This document shows positions 4,896-56,042 of a DNA stretch of 64,000 nucleotides, in pieces. Under the pieces are notes generated by a model. That model saw only the letters and a list, made by a program, of their open reading frames with translations. It made no database searches and had not been told where the DNA came from. The stretch's first letter is position 1. Every line of letters starts with the position of its first letter. Source of the stretch: Salinisphaera sp. Q1T1-3 (GTDB lineage: Bacteria; Pseudomonadota; Gammaproteobacteria; Nevskiales; Salinisphaeraceae); assembly GCF_003602005.1 (NCBI RefSeq), contig NZ_QZWD01000008.1, positions 1 through 64,000 on the forward strand. The letters are read 5' to 3'. A program made the position numbers and the translations under genes.

Positions 4896-5218
4896 CAAGT
4901 CACTCTGCCCGTCGCGATCACGACCGCGCCTCGTCCGCGCCGAAAAAAACGAGCGGAAAGCGTGTCGTCAGGCAATGGGCCGCCGCACCGGCGGCCCAGC
5001 GGTGGCAGAAGGCAAGGCATGACGAGTGTGGCGTGGCCATGCCACGTGAACGGGCGATCACGCGGGATTATTGCCGCCTGGTCGCTGGCCCTCGAGGTTG
5101 TCCCCGCCGGCGGCGCCACGCGCGGCGGCCTGCGCCTTGCCTGACACCACTGGCGGGGCAATGCGGCGGTCTATCTCCTGACGACGCTCGCCCAGCCCGC
5201 CTGATACAAACCGCGGGT
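4896..5218. other. Gene-free gap between tetR promoter and monooxygenase stop
   Basis: No supported gene. The segment 5017-5110 matches 43020-43117 (separate entry). The rest is GC-rich with no obvious hairpin and T-tract. Confidence 0.5.
5017..5110. repeat. Dispersed repeat D, copy 1
   Basis: About 80% identical by eye to 43020-43117, including the shared blocks GGCCATGCCACGT and GCGATCACGC and, further right, CGCTGGCC and TCGAGGT. Both copies lie just past the 3' end of a leftward gene (flavin monooxygenase here, choline sulfatase there). Confidence 0.5.
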
Positions 5219-9047: not shown

Positions 9048-9314
9048 GGCTATTAAAAGCTTTTAATTCATATATTTGACGTAACCGGAACGCCGTCATG
9101 CCGCGCTCGCTGCAACAGTCGATGCCACAGGTGCCGCAGCCGATACGACGGATGTCGACCGAGCGCGCTGGTACCGGGTCGGTCGATGTATGAACACGGC
9201 CCGCGGGCGCGGGCCCCCGACCGTGTATCGACGAGGTCAAGGCCTGTTATGAACCCGGCATAAAAATAGATGATTTTTCGGGTTGATAACGCGCGTGTGC
9301 GAAAGCACGCGCGC

Positions 9315-9331
9315 CACGGCCCAAGGCCGTG
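9315..9331 (-). terminator. GC-rich hairpin downstream of the sigma-54 activator gene
   Basis: CACGGCC and GGCCGTG pair perfectly around CAA; a second GC-rich stem (GCGCGTG/CACGCGC) sits beside it at 9291-9312. The position suits transcription stop for the leftward regulator gene, although no clear T-tract follows. Confidence 0.3.
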
Positions 9332-9540
9332 AAACCACTGAAAATAAAAAGACGGACAAGGGCCGGCGTTTCTTTCGATGGCGTTGAAAACAGCGGACGT
9401 CGTCAGCTGTTTTGGTGCCGGATTAATAACACGTCGCCCGTGACCGCGTTGCCGCCCAAAAACCGGCCAGGCAAGGCACATGGCGCCGGCCTTGCTCACT
9501 CCACGTTTCAAGCCGTGCAACGCCGCATGGCCGGTTTTTA

Positions 9541-9655
9541 GGCGCAATCCGGCGTTGTCGTTCGCGACGCCAGAATGACGGCCGTACGCACCCGATGCCT
9601 TGTCTTGCAACAAAATGATCCCGGCTCGGCGCACGCGCGGCGTGTTAACAGGCCC
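9541..9655. repeat. Inverted-repeat element B, copy 1
   Basis: This segment is the reverse complement, with small differences, of 11646-11760. Both contain GCATCGGG and ACGGCCGTCATTCTGGCGTC and end in the terminal motif GGGCCTGTTAACACG (here reversed, ending at 9655). The two copies flank the sigma-54 activator in opposite orientation. Homology stops near 9541, where a different stem-loop begins. Confidence 0.75.
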
Positions 9656-11645: not shown

Positions 11646-11808
11646 GGGCCTGTTAACACGCCCCGCGTGCGCCGCGCCGGCGCGCATTTTTTGCAAGATA
11701 AGGCATCGGGCGCGTACGGCCGTCATTCTGGCGTCTCGAACGACAACGCCGGATTGCAGAAAAATGGCCGCCGTCCCATCGGGTTGCGTGCGAAGTGTTG
11801 ACAGGCCC
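11646..11808. repeat. Inverted-repeat element B, copy 2 (MITE-like)
   Basis: 163 bp with terminal inverted repeats GGGCCTGTTAACA (left) and GGGCCTGTTGACA (right, reverse complement). The right end is followed by TA and the left is preceded by CA, compatible with a decayed TA duplication. Bases 11646-11760 match 9541-9655 in inverse orientation. The element lies upstream of the sigma-54 activator start and may influence its promoter. Confidence 0.7.
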
Positions 11809-30832: not shown

Positions 30833-30837
30833 GGCTA

Positions 30838-30937
30838 GGGCGTGTTGAGGTTTCGTTCGAGTCCGCGCCAAGCGCGCCCTGGAATTGACGATGGGCAGCA
30901 AGACGAGGCGGCGCTCGAACGAAACCTCAACAGGCCG
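30838..30937. repeat. MITE family A, 100-bp internally deleted copy
   Basis: Flanked by TA on both sides (30836-30837 and 30938-30939). Its ends contain the perfect 18-bp inverted repeat GTTGAGGTTTCGTTCGAG, with outer bases GGGCG on the left and CGGCC (reverse complement) on the right. The left part (TCCGCGCCAAGCGCGCCCTG) matches the longer copies at 48143 and 53415; the central ~200 bp is missing. Confidence 0.8.
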
Positions 30938-41993: not shown

Positions 41994-42686
41994 ATGAAAG
42001 CGGAGTCTCTGCTCGAGGCCCTGGGGTGCCGGATCGCGGCCGGTGAACTGACCGACGAACTGCCCAGCGAAAACGCCCTGGCACAGCGGTACGACGTCTC
42101 GCGCACCACCGTGCGCGCGGCCCTGCAGGGGCTTGTTGCACGCGGGCTCGTCGAGATCCGCCCGGCTTCGGGCGCGCGGGTCTGCGATCACGAACAGTGG
42201 GACTGGCTGGATGAAGCGGTGTTGCGCTGGGTTTGCGACAGCGGCAATCGACACATGATCCATCAGGCCGGCTTCGATGCCCGCCTGCTCGTCGAACCGT
42301 CGATCGCCGGGCTCGCCGCCCGTCACGCCAGCGCAGCCGATCTCGCCGAGATGGATCAGGCGCTAAAGATCATGGACAGCCATCATCAGGATGCCCCGGC
42401 CTTCCATCTGGCCGATACGGCCTTTCACGGTGCCATGGCGCGGGCCAGCCACAACCCGATCCTCTGTCGGCTGAGCCGAGCGCTGGAATCGGTACAGCGC
42501 ACCCTGTTCGAGCATTCCTATCGACAGGACGAATCAGAGATCCGGCTGACCGTATCCCTGCATCGACAGCTGCTGGAATCCATCCGGCTACGCCAGCCGG
42601 ATCAGGCCGAAGCCCTGGCGCGCGAACTCATCGAGACCTGTCATCGCCGTCTCGACGAGCCCCTGGCCGCAGACGACACGAATTAG
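41994..42686 (+). CDS. GntR family regulator with FCD domain (DgoR-like)
   Basis: 230 residues. Winged helix at the N-terminus (LPSENALAQRYDVSRTTVRAAL, residues ~22-43) and an all-helical FCD ligand domain with the metal-binding pattern around LLVEPSIAGLAARHA, FHGAMARASHNPI and HRQLLESIRLRQPD. DgoR-type GntR/FCD repressors respond to galactonate and control dgo genes, which fits the divergent operon. The stop codon TAG is part of the TTAG target duplication of a MITE-like element that follows directly. Confidence 0.9.
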   Translation: MKAESLLEALGCRIAAGELTDELPSENALAQRYDVSRTTVRAALQGLVARGLVEIRPASGARVCDHEQWDWLDEAVLRWVCDSGNRHMIHQAGFDARLLVEPSIAGLAARHASAADLAEMDQALKIMDSHHQDAPAFHLADTAFHGAMARASHNPILCRLSRALESVQRTLFEHSYRQDESEIRLTVSLHRQLLESIRLRQPDQAEALARELIETCHRRLDEPLAADDTN

Positions 42687-42959
42687 GGAACCTCTGATCT
42701 ATTCATCCACGGTCGCGCCGGTGTCTTCTGCGCGCGTCTGACAAGACGCCGCGAGCGCCGTTTGCTGAATGCAAATGAGCGAGCGGCAACGCCGCTCAGG
42801 CGCGCGCAAAAGCCCGGCCGCCAAGCGGTTTGGCCCAAAAGGCCGCGCTACGGCGTTGCATGGCTGGATCATAGAGTGGCTATGACGCGGCGCCATGCGC
42901 CTTGTATCGTGGCCTTTGGCGACTCAAACGCGACCGTGGATGAATAGATCAGAGGTTCC
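42687..42959. repeat. MITE C, 273 bp, TTAG target duplication
   Basis: Both ends carry a perfect 31-bp terminal inverted repeat that begins GGAACCTCTGATCTATTCAT and continues CCACGGTCGCG. The element is bracketed by TTAG at 42683-42686 and 42960-42963, so the insertion boundaries are exact. There is no transposase gene. The interior contains the ~57-nt core shared with elements A and B. It sits at the stop codon of gntR; the remaining gap to 43170 holds repeat D copy 2 and a hairpin. Confidence 0.9.
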
Positions 42960-43019
42960 TTAGACCGTGTCGTCTTGAGATAAGGCGTTGCCCCGATGGC
43001 CCAGTCGCGGCGAGACAGG

Positions 43020-43117
43020 GCATCGCGAGTACGGCACGGCCATGCCACGTCAGCGCGCGATCACGCTCGATTGACACCGCTTGGCCGCTGGCCAGGCCGT
43101 CGAGGTGTCCCAGCCGG
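43020..43117. repeat. Dispersed repeat D, copy 2
   Basis: About 80% identical by eye to 5017-5110. It lies just past the choline-sulfatase stop and partly precedes the hairpin at 43137-43162. No inverted ends are evident, so it is not an element of the MITE type. Confidence 0.5.
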
Positions 43118-43136
43118 CAGTGCCAGCCGGCGTTGC

Positions 43137-43162
43137 GGCAGGCCCGACCCGTCGGGCCTGCC
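43137..43162 (-). terminator. Hairpin downstream of choline sulfatase
   Basis: GGCAGGCCCGA and TCGGGCCTGCC form a perfect 11-bp stem around CCCG, 8 nt beyond the betC stop. Strong stem without a T-tract. Confidence 0.5.
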
Positions 43163-43170
43163 GGGCCGGG

Positions 43171-46228: not shown

Positions 46229-47143
46229 ATGAATACCGATGTCATTCTCACCTGTGCCGTGACCGGCGCTGGCGATACGCCGGCCAAGAACGCCCACGTG
46301 CCCGTTTCGCCCGCTGCGATCGCCGCCGACTGCATCGCAGCCGCCCGCGCCGGTGCCGCAATCGCGCACGTGCATGTCCGCGACCCCGAGACCGGCGCCC
46401 ACAGCCACGAGACCGATCATTTCCGCGAGATCGTGGATCGCGTGCGCGATTCGGATACCGATGTGGTGCTCAACTTCACCGCCGGCGGCGGCGGCGATCT
46501 GTTTCCCGAACTGGTCGGCACCAACGGCCCGGATCGCCAGATCCGGGCTGCCGCCGGCTCGGATCTGCAGAGCCCGTCCGAGCGCCACGCCCCGATCGGC
46601 GCCCTGCTGCCGGAAATCTGCACGCTCGACTGCGGCAGTCTCAACTTCGGCGACATGGTCTATCTGAACGCCGCCGACTGGCTGCGCGAACACGCTGCCC
46701 TCGTCCAGGCCGCCGGCGTGAAGCCGGAACTGGAATGCTTCGACCTGGGCCATGTCTGGTTCGCCCGCCAGCTGATCGACGAGGGACTGATCGACGCCGA
46801 CCCGTTGTTTCAGCTGTGCCTGGGGATCCCCTGGGGCGCCGAGGCCGACCCGCAGACCATGCTCGCCATGCGCGACAAGCTGCCGGCGAATGCGCACTGG
46901 GCTGCCTTCGGCATCGGCCGCATGCAGATGCCCATGGTCGCCCAGGCGATGATCGCCGGCGGGCATTGCCGCGTCGGCCTGGAGGACAATCTCTATCTGT
47001 CGAAGGGCATCAAGGCCGATAACACCGGCCTGGTGGACAAGGCGCGTCACGTTATCGAAGCCCTTGGTGGCAATGTCATGAGTCCGCAGGCCACACGCGA
47101 TCATCTGGCCCTGCGCGGTGCCCGCACCGGGAGCGCGGCATGA
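46229..47143 (+). CDS. cdhC: 3-dehydrocarnitine cleavage enzyme (BKACE family)
   Basis: 304 residues from the ATG at 46229; an earlier ATG at 46208 adds seven residues. BKACE/DUF849 TIM barrel: ILTCAVTGAGDTPAKNAHVP at the start, zinc ligands His47 and His49 in AHVHVRDP, VLNFTAGGGGD, and the C-terminal RVGLEDNLYLSKG with the metal Glu. The TGAGDT...HVPVSP form fits the dehydrocarnitine group. With acetyl-CoA it converts 3-dehydrocarnitine into betainyl-CoA and acetoacetate. It overlaps cdhA (ATGA), and a betainyl-CoA thioesterase gene follows, which strongly supports the assignment. Confidence 0.88.
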   Translation: MNTDVILTCAVTGAGDTPAKNAHVPVSPAAIAADCIAAARAGAAIAHVHVRDPETGAHSHETDHFREIVDRVRDSDTDVVLNFTAGGGGDLFPELVGTNGPDRQIRAAAGSDLQSPSERHAPIGALLPEICTLDCGSLNFGDMVYLNAADWLREHAALVQAAGVKPELECFDLGHVWFARQLIDEGLIDADPLFQLCLGIPWGAEADPQTMLAMRDKLPANAHWAAFGIGRMQMPMVAQAMIAGGHCRVGLEDNLYLSKGIKADNTGLVDKARHVIEALGGNVMSPQATRDHLALRGARTGSAA

Positions 47144-48141
47144 ACGCAGCAGTGGACAATCAGGACGACAAGACAACGATCGTGCCGAAGCGCATCGCGA
47201 TCGTCGGCTCGGGCGTGATCGGCTGCGGCTGGGCGGTACGCGCACTGGCTGCCGGTGCTGAAGTCGTCGCCTACGATACCGACGTCGAAACCGCACGGCA
47301 GCGTCTCGCCCGGATGATCGACACCGCCTGGCCGTCGCTCGAAAAACGTGGCCTGGCGGCCAACGCCGATCGCAACAACTGGCGCGTGACCGACGATCTC
47401 GAGGCTGCGGTCGCCGATGCCGATCTGGTGCAGGAAAACGTGCCGGAACGGCTCGAACTCAAGCAGACTGTGCTGTCGGCCATCGACGGCGCGACCGCCC
47501 CGGACACGCTGATCGGCTCGTCCACGTCCGGCATCAAGCCGAGCGAGCTCGCCGCCGGTTGTGGCCATGCGCCCGCCCGCGTCGTGGTTGGGCATCCCTT
47601 CAACCCGGTCTATCTGCTGCCGCTCGTCGAAATCGTCGGCAGCAGTGCCACCACGCCAGCGGTAATCGATCAGGCCGGCGCGCTGTATCGCGGGTTGGGC
47701 ATGCGCCCGCTCGTCGTACAGCGCGAGATCGAGGGCCATATCGCCGATCGCCTCATGGAAGCGCTCTGGCGAGAAGCCCTGCATCTCGTCAACGATGGCG
47801 TCGCGACGACCGAGGAGATCGACGCCGCCGTGGTCTACGGCGCCGGACTGCGCTGGTCGCTGATGGGAACGTGCCTGACGTTCCATCTCGCCGGCGGCGA
47901 GGCCGGCATGCGTCATATGCTCGAACAGTTCGGCCCGGCTCTGAAACTCCCCTGGACGAAACTCGAAGCGCCGGAACTGACCGAGACACTCATCGACCGC
48001 GTTGTCGAAGGCACAGCCCATCAGGCCGCCGGCCGCTCGGTGGCCGAACTCGAAGCACGCCGCGATGCCTTTCTGACCGAGTTACTCTCGGTCGTCGAGA
48101 AATACTGGCCGGAAGCCGAAGGCCTGGCCGACCGGATCTAG
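47140..48141 (+). CDS. cdhA: L-carnitine 3-dehydrogenase
   Basis: 333 residues of the 3-hydroxyacyl-CoA dehydrogenase fold: IAIVGSGVIGCGWAVRALAAG for NAD, VQENVPERLELK, SSTSGIKPSEL, and VVGHPFNPVYLLPLVEIV with the catalytic His. LcdH/CdhA enzymes have this length and these blocks. It oxidises L-carnitine to 3-dehydrocarnitine, the substrate of the overlapping upstream gene. In several bacteria the thioesterase is fused to its C-terminus; here the thioesterase is separate, and a MITE-like element starts one base after its stop codon. Confidence 0.9.
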   Translation: MNAAVDNQDDKTTIVPKRIAIVGSGVIGCGWAVRALAAGAEVVAYDTDVETARQRLARMIDTAWPSLEKRGLAANADRNNWRVTDDLEAAVADADLVQENVPERLELKQTVLSAIDGATAPDTLIGSSTSGIKPSELAAGCGHAPARVVVGHPFNPVYLLPLVEIVGSSATTPAVIDQAGALYRGLGMRPLVVQREIEGHIADRLMEALWREALHLVNDGVATTEEIDAAVVYGAGLRWSLMGTCLTFHLAGGEAGMRHMLEQFGPALKLPWTKLEAPELTETLIDRVVEGTAHQAAGRSVAELEARRDAFLTELLSVVEKYWPEAEGLADRI

Positions 48142-48142
48142 A

Positions 48143-48447
48143 GCCTGTTGATGTTTCGTGCGAGTCCGCGCCAAGTGCGCCCTGAAATTGACGATGGGCG
48201 GCAAGACGAGGCATAGCACGCATAGCGTGTCATTCTGCGCCAGCGTGCTAGAACGCTGGATTGCCGTCGTGTTTTTGATTTGGGGGGCACTTGTCCCTTC
48301 GGGTTGGGCCGCCCATGAAAAATCGACGATGGGCGCCCTGCGGCGTTGCGGGCCTTGATCGTGGCACGCCACGATCGGCGACTCGCGCCTTACCGGACAC
48401 GCTGCGGTCTCTCGACGAAAAGGCGCTCGAACGAAACCTCAACAGGC
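48143..48447. repeat. MITE family A, 305-bp copy inside the carnitine operon
   Basis: Ends GCCTGTTGATGTTTCGTGCG on the left and the reverse complement of GCCTGTTGAGGTTTCGTTCG on the right, about 20 of 22 terminal bases matching. Highly similar along its length to 53415-53732. The left end is preceded by TAGA, so a TA flank is possible; the right flank is CC-CA. It carries no transposase gene. It fills most of the 426-bp gap between cdhA and the thioesterase gene. Confidence 0.85.
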
Positions 48448-48567
48448 CCCAGGACACGTCGTCAACGCCGGATCGCCGCTCACCCACGACCCGGTGGGCC
48501 AGGACAAAGCCTCGAGACCCGCCGCCGAATCATGAGTCGAACGTCTTCAACGCGTCAGGAATCCCCC

Positions 48568-53414: not shown

Positions 53415-53732
53415 TAGGGCCTGTTGATGTTTCGTGCGAGTCCGCGCCAAGCGCGCCCTGAAACCGACGATCGGCGGCAAGACGAGGCGTAGCAGGCATA
53501 GCCTGTCATTCTGCGCCAGCCTGCTAGAACGCTGTATTGCCGTCGTGTTCTTGATTTTGGGGCCCTTGTCCCTTCCCTTCGGGTTGGGCCGCCCATGAAA
53601 AATCGACGATGGGCGCCCGGCGGCGTTGCGAGCCTTGATCGTGGCACGCCACGATACGGCGACTCGCGCCTTGCCGGACACGCTGCGGTCTCTCGACGAA
53701 AAGGCGCTCGAACGAAACCTCAACAGGACCTA
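53415..53732. repeat. MITE family A, 318-bp copy
   Basis: Left end TAGGGCCTGTTGATGTTTCG, right end (reverse complement) TAGGTCCTGTTGAGGTTTCG; TA at each boundary is consistent with a target duplication. Highly similar to 48143-48447, including the shared CATGAAAAATCGACGATGGGC block. It occupies the gap between the S46 gene start and the lipoprotein gene, so it must contain or displace the S46 promoter. Confidence 0.85.
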
Positions 53733-55806: not shown

Positions 55807-55923
55807 ACGCCCTGCGGCGTTGCCAGCCTTGATCGTGGCACGCCACGATCGGCGACTCGCGACTTGCCGGACACACTGCGGTCTCTCAACGAAAAGGCGC
55901 TCGAACGACACATCAACAGGCCC
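55807..55923. repeat. MITE family A, right-half remnant
   Basis: Matches the right ~115 bp of the 48143-48447 element (GCCTTGATCGTGGCACGCCACGATCGGCG, then the terminal CAACAGGCCC). The left half is absent, replaced by unrelated DNA, so the copy is truncated and no longer able to move. Confidence 0.8.
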
Positions 55924-56042
55924 TGGTGACCGGTAAACCGCCCTAACCCACGGCCACAGACGACATGTTCGCCGCCGCCCGCCTTGAATAACCGTGTCTT
56001 CGGCTGCGCGAGCCTTTTCTTGTTTCCTTCCTTGGCGCAGGC

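Follow-up and report, generated by a model that had tools for sequence, protein, structure and literature searches.

A covarying stem-loop unit lies in two inverted copies inside MITEs with differing ends in Salinisphaera sp. Q1T1-3 and other Gamma- and Betaproteobacteria

Short elements in the window

The window (the whole stretch of 64,000 nucleotides analysed here, positions 1 to 64,000 of contig NZ_QZWD01000008.1 of Salinisphaera sp. Q1T1-3) carries three kinds of short element, denoted A, B and C, which have a core of about 57 nt in common. The element from which this study started, C, is laid out as follows.

42683-42686, no strand: left target duplication TTAG of element C, repeated at 42960-42963
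42687-42959, plus strand: element C, a complete MITE of 273 bp with terminal inverted repeats of about 31-35 bp at each end
42740-42799, minus strand: arm 1 of element C, an inverted copy of the core, reading CAAGAC..GCAACGCC on the plus strand
42818-42828, no strand: mini-hairpin between the arms of C, CCGC CAA GCGG, the counterpart of CCCNNNGGG in other elements
42851-42904, plus strand: arm 2 core of element C, the finding followed up here (sequence, core pattern and core alignment)

Folded as RNA, element C has a z-score of -11.8. Six open reading frames of at least 40 aa touch it, of which only two (61 and 65 aa) lie wholly within it. The genome holds 25 full and 2 partial copies of family C, which are 97-100% identical, and identical 4-bp flanks (e.g. 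TTAG, CTAA) border 19 of the 25 full copies. A BLAST search of element C against plasmids gave no match. Sequences that may be degenerate relatives, containing pieces similar to the core (direct repeat), lie at 4960-5160 and, beside C, at 42975-43170 in the window, and also at L075:1974-2031, the L075 core being counted in the core alignment described below.

The elements of families A and B in the window, and the cores within them, are the following.

9241-9655, minus strand: family B MITE whose right end contains a different, nested repeat (about 9248-9428; limits by eye)
9472-9524, minus strand: arm 2 core of this B element (sequence, core pattern)
9551-9602, plus strand: arm 1 core of this B element, reading GGCGTTG..GCCTTG on the plus strand, inverted relative to arm 2
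11646-11808, plus strand: family B MITE that keeps arm 1 and is without arm 2 (sequence)
30836-30937, plus strand: internally deleted family A copy without the core (sequence)
48141-48449, plus strand: complete family A MITE with GGGCCTGTTGATGTTTCG-type ends, the copy beginning GAGCC
48342-48393, plus strand: arm 2 core of this complete A copy (sequence, model match)
53417-53730, plus strand: complete family A MITE (sequence)
53622-53673, plus strand: arm 2 core of this further A copy (core pattern)
55808-55924, plus strand: right half of a family A MITE, with the core (sequence, model match)
55811-55870: core in this truncated A copy (model match)

The two complete A copies are 309 and 314 bp long, and the flanks of A, judged by eye, mostly fit a TA duplication within CTAG. 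When the best 40 of 306 first-look candidates for family A were scored, 40 places matched well. A preliminary description of the window held that the terminal repeats of the three kinds of element differ; this stands for C, whose ends are of another type, whereas A and B have a common tip, GGCCTGTT(A/G)A. A fourth kind, D, is represented by locus L099, and chimeras with one A end and one B end are found at L100 and L101, which supports the exchange between elements that had been suggested. Some family A cores (L044, L106 and similar) lack the internal loop that most copies have and are perfectly palindromic, an appearance that suggests palindrome correction through template switching.

Two further features were observed beside these families. 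Several B elements have within or next to them a repeat of about 165-180 bp (TTATTAATCCGGCACC..GCCGGGTT.ATAA, limits by eye), seen at about 9248-9428 in the window and at L092, L097, L098, L100 and L102. The stop codon of a reading frame of 333 aa (47140-48141) is the TAG at the A element's left junction (48139-48141) and was therefore left intact by the insertion.

A core shared between elements

The window has three occurrences of the exact pattern GGCGTTGC..GCCTTG where shuffles predict 0.05, and the whole genome has 141 core-pattern matches against 1 for a reversed control pattern. The core copy at 48342-48393 is missed by the exact pattern because its final letters are GCGCCTTA (TTA) rather than TTG. 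These counts confirm the sharing of a core between C, A and B, and argue against the chance similarity in GC-rich DNA that the preliminary description had named as a possible refutation. Nested insertion of one element into another, named there likewise, is ruled out as the source of the core by the C copies and their target duplications, as the C core lies inside 25 full-length copies, 19 of them with identical 4-bp duplications. The core is an internal component of each element and not a nested copy; because it sits within each element, between that element's own terminal repeats, the idea that it marks a target hot spot is unsupported.

Two inverted arms

In 189 loci (L107-L295), 112 elements were recovered by a script that required matching ends as well as the core motif. 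Most of them have the same layout of terminal repeat, arm 1, mini-hairpin, arm 2 and terminal repeat, and 82 are 264-276 bp long, with 10 shorter and 20 longer. The ends vary widely from host to host. Terminal inverted repeats are present, matching ends having been a selection criterion in the 112-element search; target site duplications are also present, of 4 bp in C and of TA in A, and the lengths, together with the reading frames of C, agree with elements of less than about 500 bp that have no transposase gene, as is typical of MITEs.

The two arms represent a single stem-loop unit in inverted copies, and the consensus of one arm mirrors that of the other. The covariance model R1, built from the alignment of 23 cores described below, matches both arms in 12 of 87 loci, on opposite strands and 104-131 nt apart, and an apical loop T-N-R-T-T is common in both arms, read in the same sense. 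A loose regular expression for arm 1 was of no use, matching 31 of 106 control flanks as well as 65 of the 112 elements, and arm 1 was therefore judged by alignment and model. The preliminary description missed that each element has two inverted cores and that this layout extends across Gamma- and Betaproteobacteria.

In raw counts, 102 of the 112 elements have a C/G mini-hairpin with a three-base loop ahead of the core, at a distance of 31-33 nt in 93. The loop is of the TNC type or its complement in 90 of the 102 mini-hairpins (TTC 34, TGC 8, TCC 7; GAA 30, GCA 6, GTA 3, GGA 2). As RNA, the TNC type corresponds to a UNCG tetraloop. Most of the other interiors compared with that of C show an identity of 0.54-0.68 to it (shuffled C, 0.54), and interior similarity does not discriminate end swaps between C-like and B-like types.

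Conservation of the fold

An alignment of copies in search of covarying pairs, as the preliminary description had proposed, comprised 23 cores (kinds A, B, C and D and two strays). It gave one fold of 19 pairs, 9 of which are changed on both sides, against 0-4 in slid controls and a mean of 5.5 in shuffled ones. Whole elements were also aligned, 49 of them, none more than 80% identical to another, together with the C of the window (50 in total). RNAalifold gave 86 pairs for these 50, 76 of them with changes on both sides. Because matching ends had been a selection criterion, the arms and mini-hairpin were recounted alone. In their 44 pairs (50 rows), 86.5% of cells are paired against 51.3% in shuffled alignments, 806 cells are changed on both sides against 278 (sd 13), and the covariation score is 0.829 against 0.209 shuffled and at most 0.195 slid. 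Two measures barely discriminate, namely the number of pairs with any both-sided change (42 against 40.6 shuffled, reached in 34 of 500 shuffles) and the number of pair types (150 against 139.8 shuffled). The 44-pair structure was derived from its own alignment and is therefore favoured over slid versions, but its lead on the main measures is wide. The fold of the arms is conserved by compensatory change.

At E<=5, an Rfam search of the window found no family above its gathering cut-off in the elements. Among 16 loci searched at gathering, the matches were just tRNA and SRP RNA, both outside the elements, and four loci searched at E<=1 gave one match below its cut-off, isrD (22.8 bits against 37).

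A fold that works as a single strand tolerates G.T (G.U) pairs and does not tolerate A.C pairs, and on the opposite strand the two are swapped. When the 50 elements are read as 5'-CAAGGC..GCAACGCC-3', their inner and apical stems have a G.T to A.C ratio of 32:5 for arm 2 and of 35:8 for arm 1; counted by sequence, the same stems give 27 vs 2 and 26 vs 2. In the same elements the terminal repeats are even (21:20) and the outer stems mixed (43:24 in arm 1, 12:17 in arm 2). The p-values for the 50 elements are too small, because the sequences are related.

The excess recurs in arm 2 in the inner stems of 56 sequences (50:6, summed) and in the middle stem of 55 sequences anchored without alignment (18:1). 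In arm 1 a single column contributes 16 of the 35 G.T pairs in the 50 elements, leaving 19:8 without it, and 23 of the 47 in the inner and apical stems of 73 sequences (47:6, summed), leaving 24:6. The middle stem of arm 1 in 48 sequences, anchored without gaps, gave 17:13; its register is poor, because 82 of 288 cells are wholly unpaired. The wobble asymmetry is thus firm in arm 2 and less firm in arm 1, and it marks 5'-CAAGGC..GCAACGCC-3' as the strand whose fold is kept. Within one element the asymmetry has opposite senses in arm 1 and arm 2, which makes a simple mutation bias between strands unlikely. The wobble data point to a single-stranded fold, with RNA and ssDNA indistinguishable by them. 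The structured functional unit that had been proposed for the core is accordingly supported by the covariation, and less firmly by the strand-specific wobble bias.

Distribution in genomes and on plasmids

R1 has at least 150 matches in this genome and is present in all 13 other genomes of the genus. Among relatives it was found in 41 of 61 genomes (own included) and 14 of 20 genera, and in a sample of the class in 29 of 369 genomes (own included) and 22 of 271 genera (E<=1e-5). The GTDB class Gammaproteobacteria has the Betaproteobacteria placed inside it. A stricter text pattern found at least 118 stretches in named genomes, and Stutzerimonas, Azotobacter, Stenotrophomonas, Acidovorax, Delftia, Polaromonas, Herbaspirillum, Nitrosomonas, Thiobacillus and Salinisphaera are among the matches listed. 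A-like elements are carried by Salinisphaera records. R1 matched 86 of 87 loci (80 of the at least 118 stretches and 7 viral contigs) at E<=0.01, a figure that is not independent because the loci had been picked by the core motif.

Outside these groups, two Pseudonocardia loci (L212 and L214), with a low R1 score and no element with ends, are probably chance matches, as is the pattern match in a Lentisphaeria MAG (L195), which R1 does not match. Elements with matching ends are also present in MAG contigs labelled Desulfovibrionaceae (L190) and Hyphomicrobiales (L226), which lie outside the Gamma- and Betaproteobacteria and reflect either transfer or mis-binning. Core matches in genome G255 also occur at a constant offset from contig ends (for example at 32-92 in contigs C43, C45 and C74), and the elements therefore probably break short-read assemblies and are undercounted.

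A Stutzerimonas element matched five plasmid records, four of them with at least 80% coverage and 77.9-79.6% identity. Plasmids of Pseudomonas aeruginosa, Azotobacter and Halomonas carry elements close to this type, with matches that extend over 84-100% of the element length. In the two regions inspected, the plasmid elements overlap no listed feature, although the feature table is incomplete and the Halomonas record has a single feature. L165 matched one plasmid record with 18% covered, an Acidovorax element gave no match against plasmids and phages, and L228 gave none against E. coli genomes.

Vehicles and comparable systems

The same genome contains an insertion sequence of 858 bp (L297:1143-2000) with CTAG flanks, which carries the family A tip GGGCCTGTTGATGTTTC at one end and encodes a transposase of 267 aa (NCBIfam NF033580, IS5 family; 248.6 bits, cut-off 110). 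Its ends suggest that it is the likely vehicle of family A. The core was found neither on reading the sequence of this insertion sequence nor among the model matches listed. It shows no arms, and the interior of the MITEs is not derived from it. A transposase partner was found by end similarity for family A only. PF01609 matched 36 places in 14 genomes of the genus, and a scan of the loci of 30 of these for the tip of C in pairs gave no partner; none was found for other end types at 6 places in 8 genomes, the searches covering transposases other than those of the IS630 type.

The elements resemble several known systems in part. An attC site has imperfect inverted repeats with unpaired bases and the consensus GTTRRRY / RYYYAAC. 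The present elements share the former, and an identity with integron attC sites was rejected since, in the alignment, the core motifs GGCGTTGC and GCGCCTTG do not fit that consensus. One subgroup of IS5 makes a 4-bp YTAR-like duplication, which the duplication of C fits. The ends and CTAG flanks of A match the 858-bp element of the IS5 family, which differs in being without arms.

REPs are palindromes associated with RAYT (Y1) transposases. In BIMEs they occur in paired inverted orientation, and repeated stem-loops so arranged are likewise seen here. Unlike them, the present unit is about 57 nt long and lies in elements of about 270 bp with terminal repeats and 2- or 4-bp duplications. REPs are described as 20-40 bp long and tagged GTAG or CGTC (PMC3733652); our alignments show a unit of about 57 nt with other conserved letters and not such a palindrome, and an identity with REP/BIME was rejected. 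Bacterial MITEs such as Correia/NEMIS, RUP, ERIC and QMITE are also short and non-coding, with terminal inverted repeats, target duplication and predicted stable folded transcripts. The present elements differ from them in having one folded interior across families with different ends in many hosts, and in containing two inverted copies of one unit. RUP has been proposed to share its tips with IS630-Spn1 (PMC2229807), and family A likewise has the tips of an insertion sequence in the same genome. For QMITE1 of Coxiella, the authors' BLASTn is reported to have given no orthologues (PMC5896051). No earlier description of a superfamily of the present kind was noticed in open-access literature listings.

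Discussion

On balance, we lean towards the view that a large superfamily of MITEs in Gamma- and Betaproteobacteria has a conserved, folded interior, one half of which is the core, and that this interior is maintained in the following way. The elements would be moved by transposases of the IS5 family acting in trans on the tips of their terminal repeats, and the interior would stay the same as the ends changed or followed different transposases. The unit would work as a single strand, more probably as RNA than as ssDNA. Because it is doubled in inverted orientation, one working unit would be read from each strand, however the element had inserted. We may further guess that a widespread host RNA-binding or RNA-processing factor uses the unit, and so makes insertions tolerable or aids the element. 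The stronger form of this proposal, in which a strand-specific RNA or ssDNA module, arranged as an inverted pair and recognised by a conserved host factor, is itself under selection as a non-coding passenger and changes vehicles, between unrelated transposon ends, across the Gamma- and Betaproteobacteria, seems to us possible but less likely than not.

Some of the evidence could also be read as showing that the arms matter as double-stranded or extruded palindromes (cruciforms), or that pairing persists without selection because one arm is corrected from the other by copying errors across the hairpin. The perfect core variants of family A (L044, L106) are what such processes would leave, and the symmetry of the terminal repeats (21:20), nearly matched by the anchored middle stem of arm 1 (17:13), is in keeping with them. 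However, neither palindromes nor copy correction predicts an excess of G.T on one strand that takes the opposite sense in the two arms of an element, and conserved unpaired letters (AA, AAC, CAAG) on the two sides survive any such correction, so that we consider this explanation unlikely, if still a serious one. Descent without function, the interior being an inherited remnant of one ancient MITE or insertion sequence that was spread by transposition, would account for the very uniform layout and length, as expected from a single ancestor, and for the near identity of MITE copies within one genome. Yet the pairs and bulge letters are kept in interiors whose identity to C is near random, and neutral descent is disfavoured for this reason; of the explanations weighed here it seems to us the least probable.

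The elements might instead be transcript-end signals or insulators at the 3' ends of genes. The junction forms the in-frame stop of a frame of at least 80 codons in 24 of 39 A elements, 14 of 24 C elements and 41 of 102 in a broad set, and of 57 C and A elements, 21 have both flanking genes pointing towards the element and 8 have both pointing away. Against this, control CTAG sites form stops in 7 of 20 cases in the window and 80 of 168 in named loci, under a test narrower than that applied to the elements, and in the broad set, with crude gene calls, both genes point towards the element in 17 of 88 cases and away in another 17. Placement at stop codons or 3' ends was rejected as the function, being not clearly above the CTAG control and with a gene context that is inconsistent between the sets, and we regard such a role as improbable.

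MITEs are usually taken to be shrunken insertion sequences with unimportant interiors. In the superfamily that we favour this is reversed, as the conserved part is the interior and the variable part is the ends. If this is true, these elements would form a class of folded, non-coding passengers that is widespread in proteobacteria and whose orientation is made irrelevant by the inverted pair.
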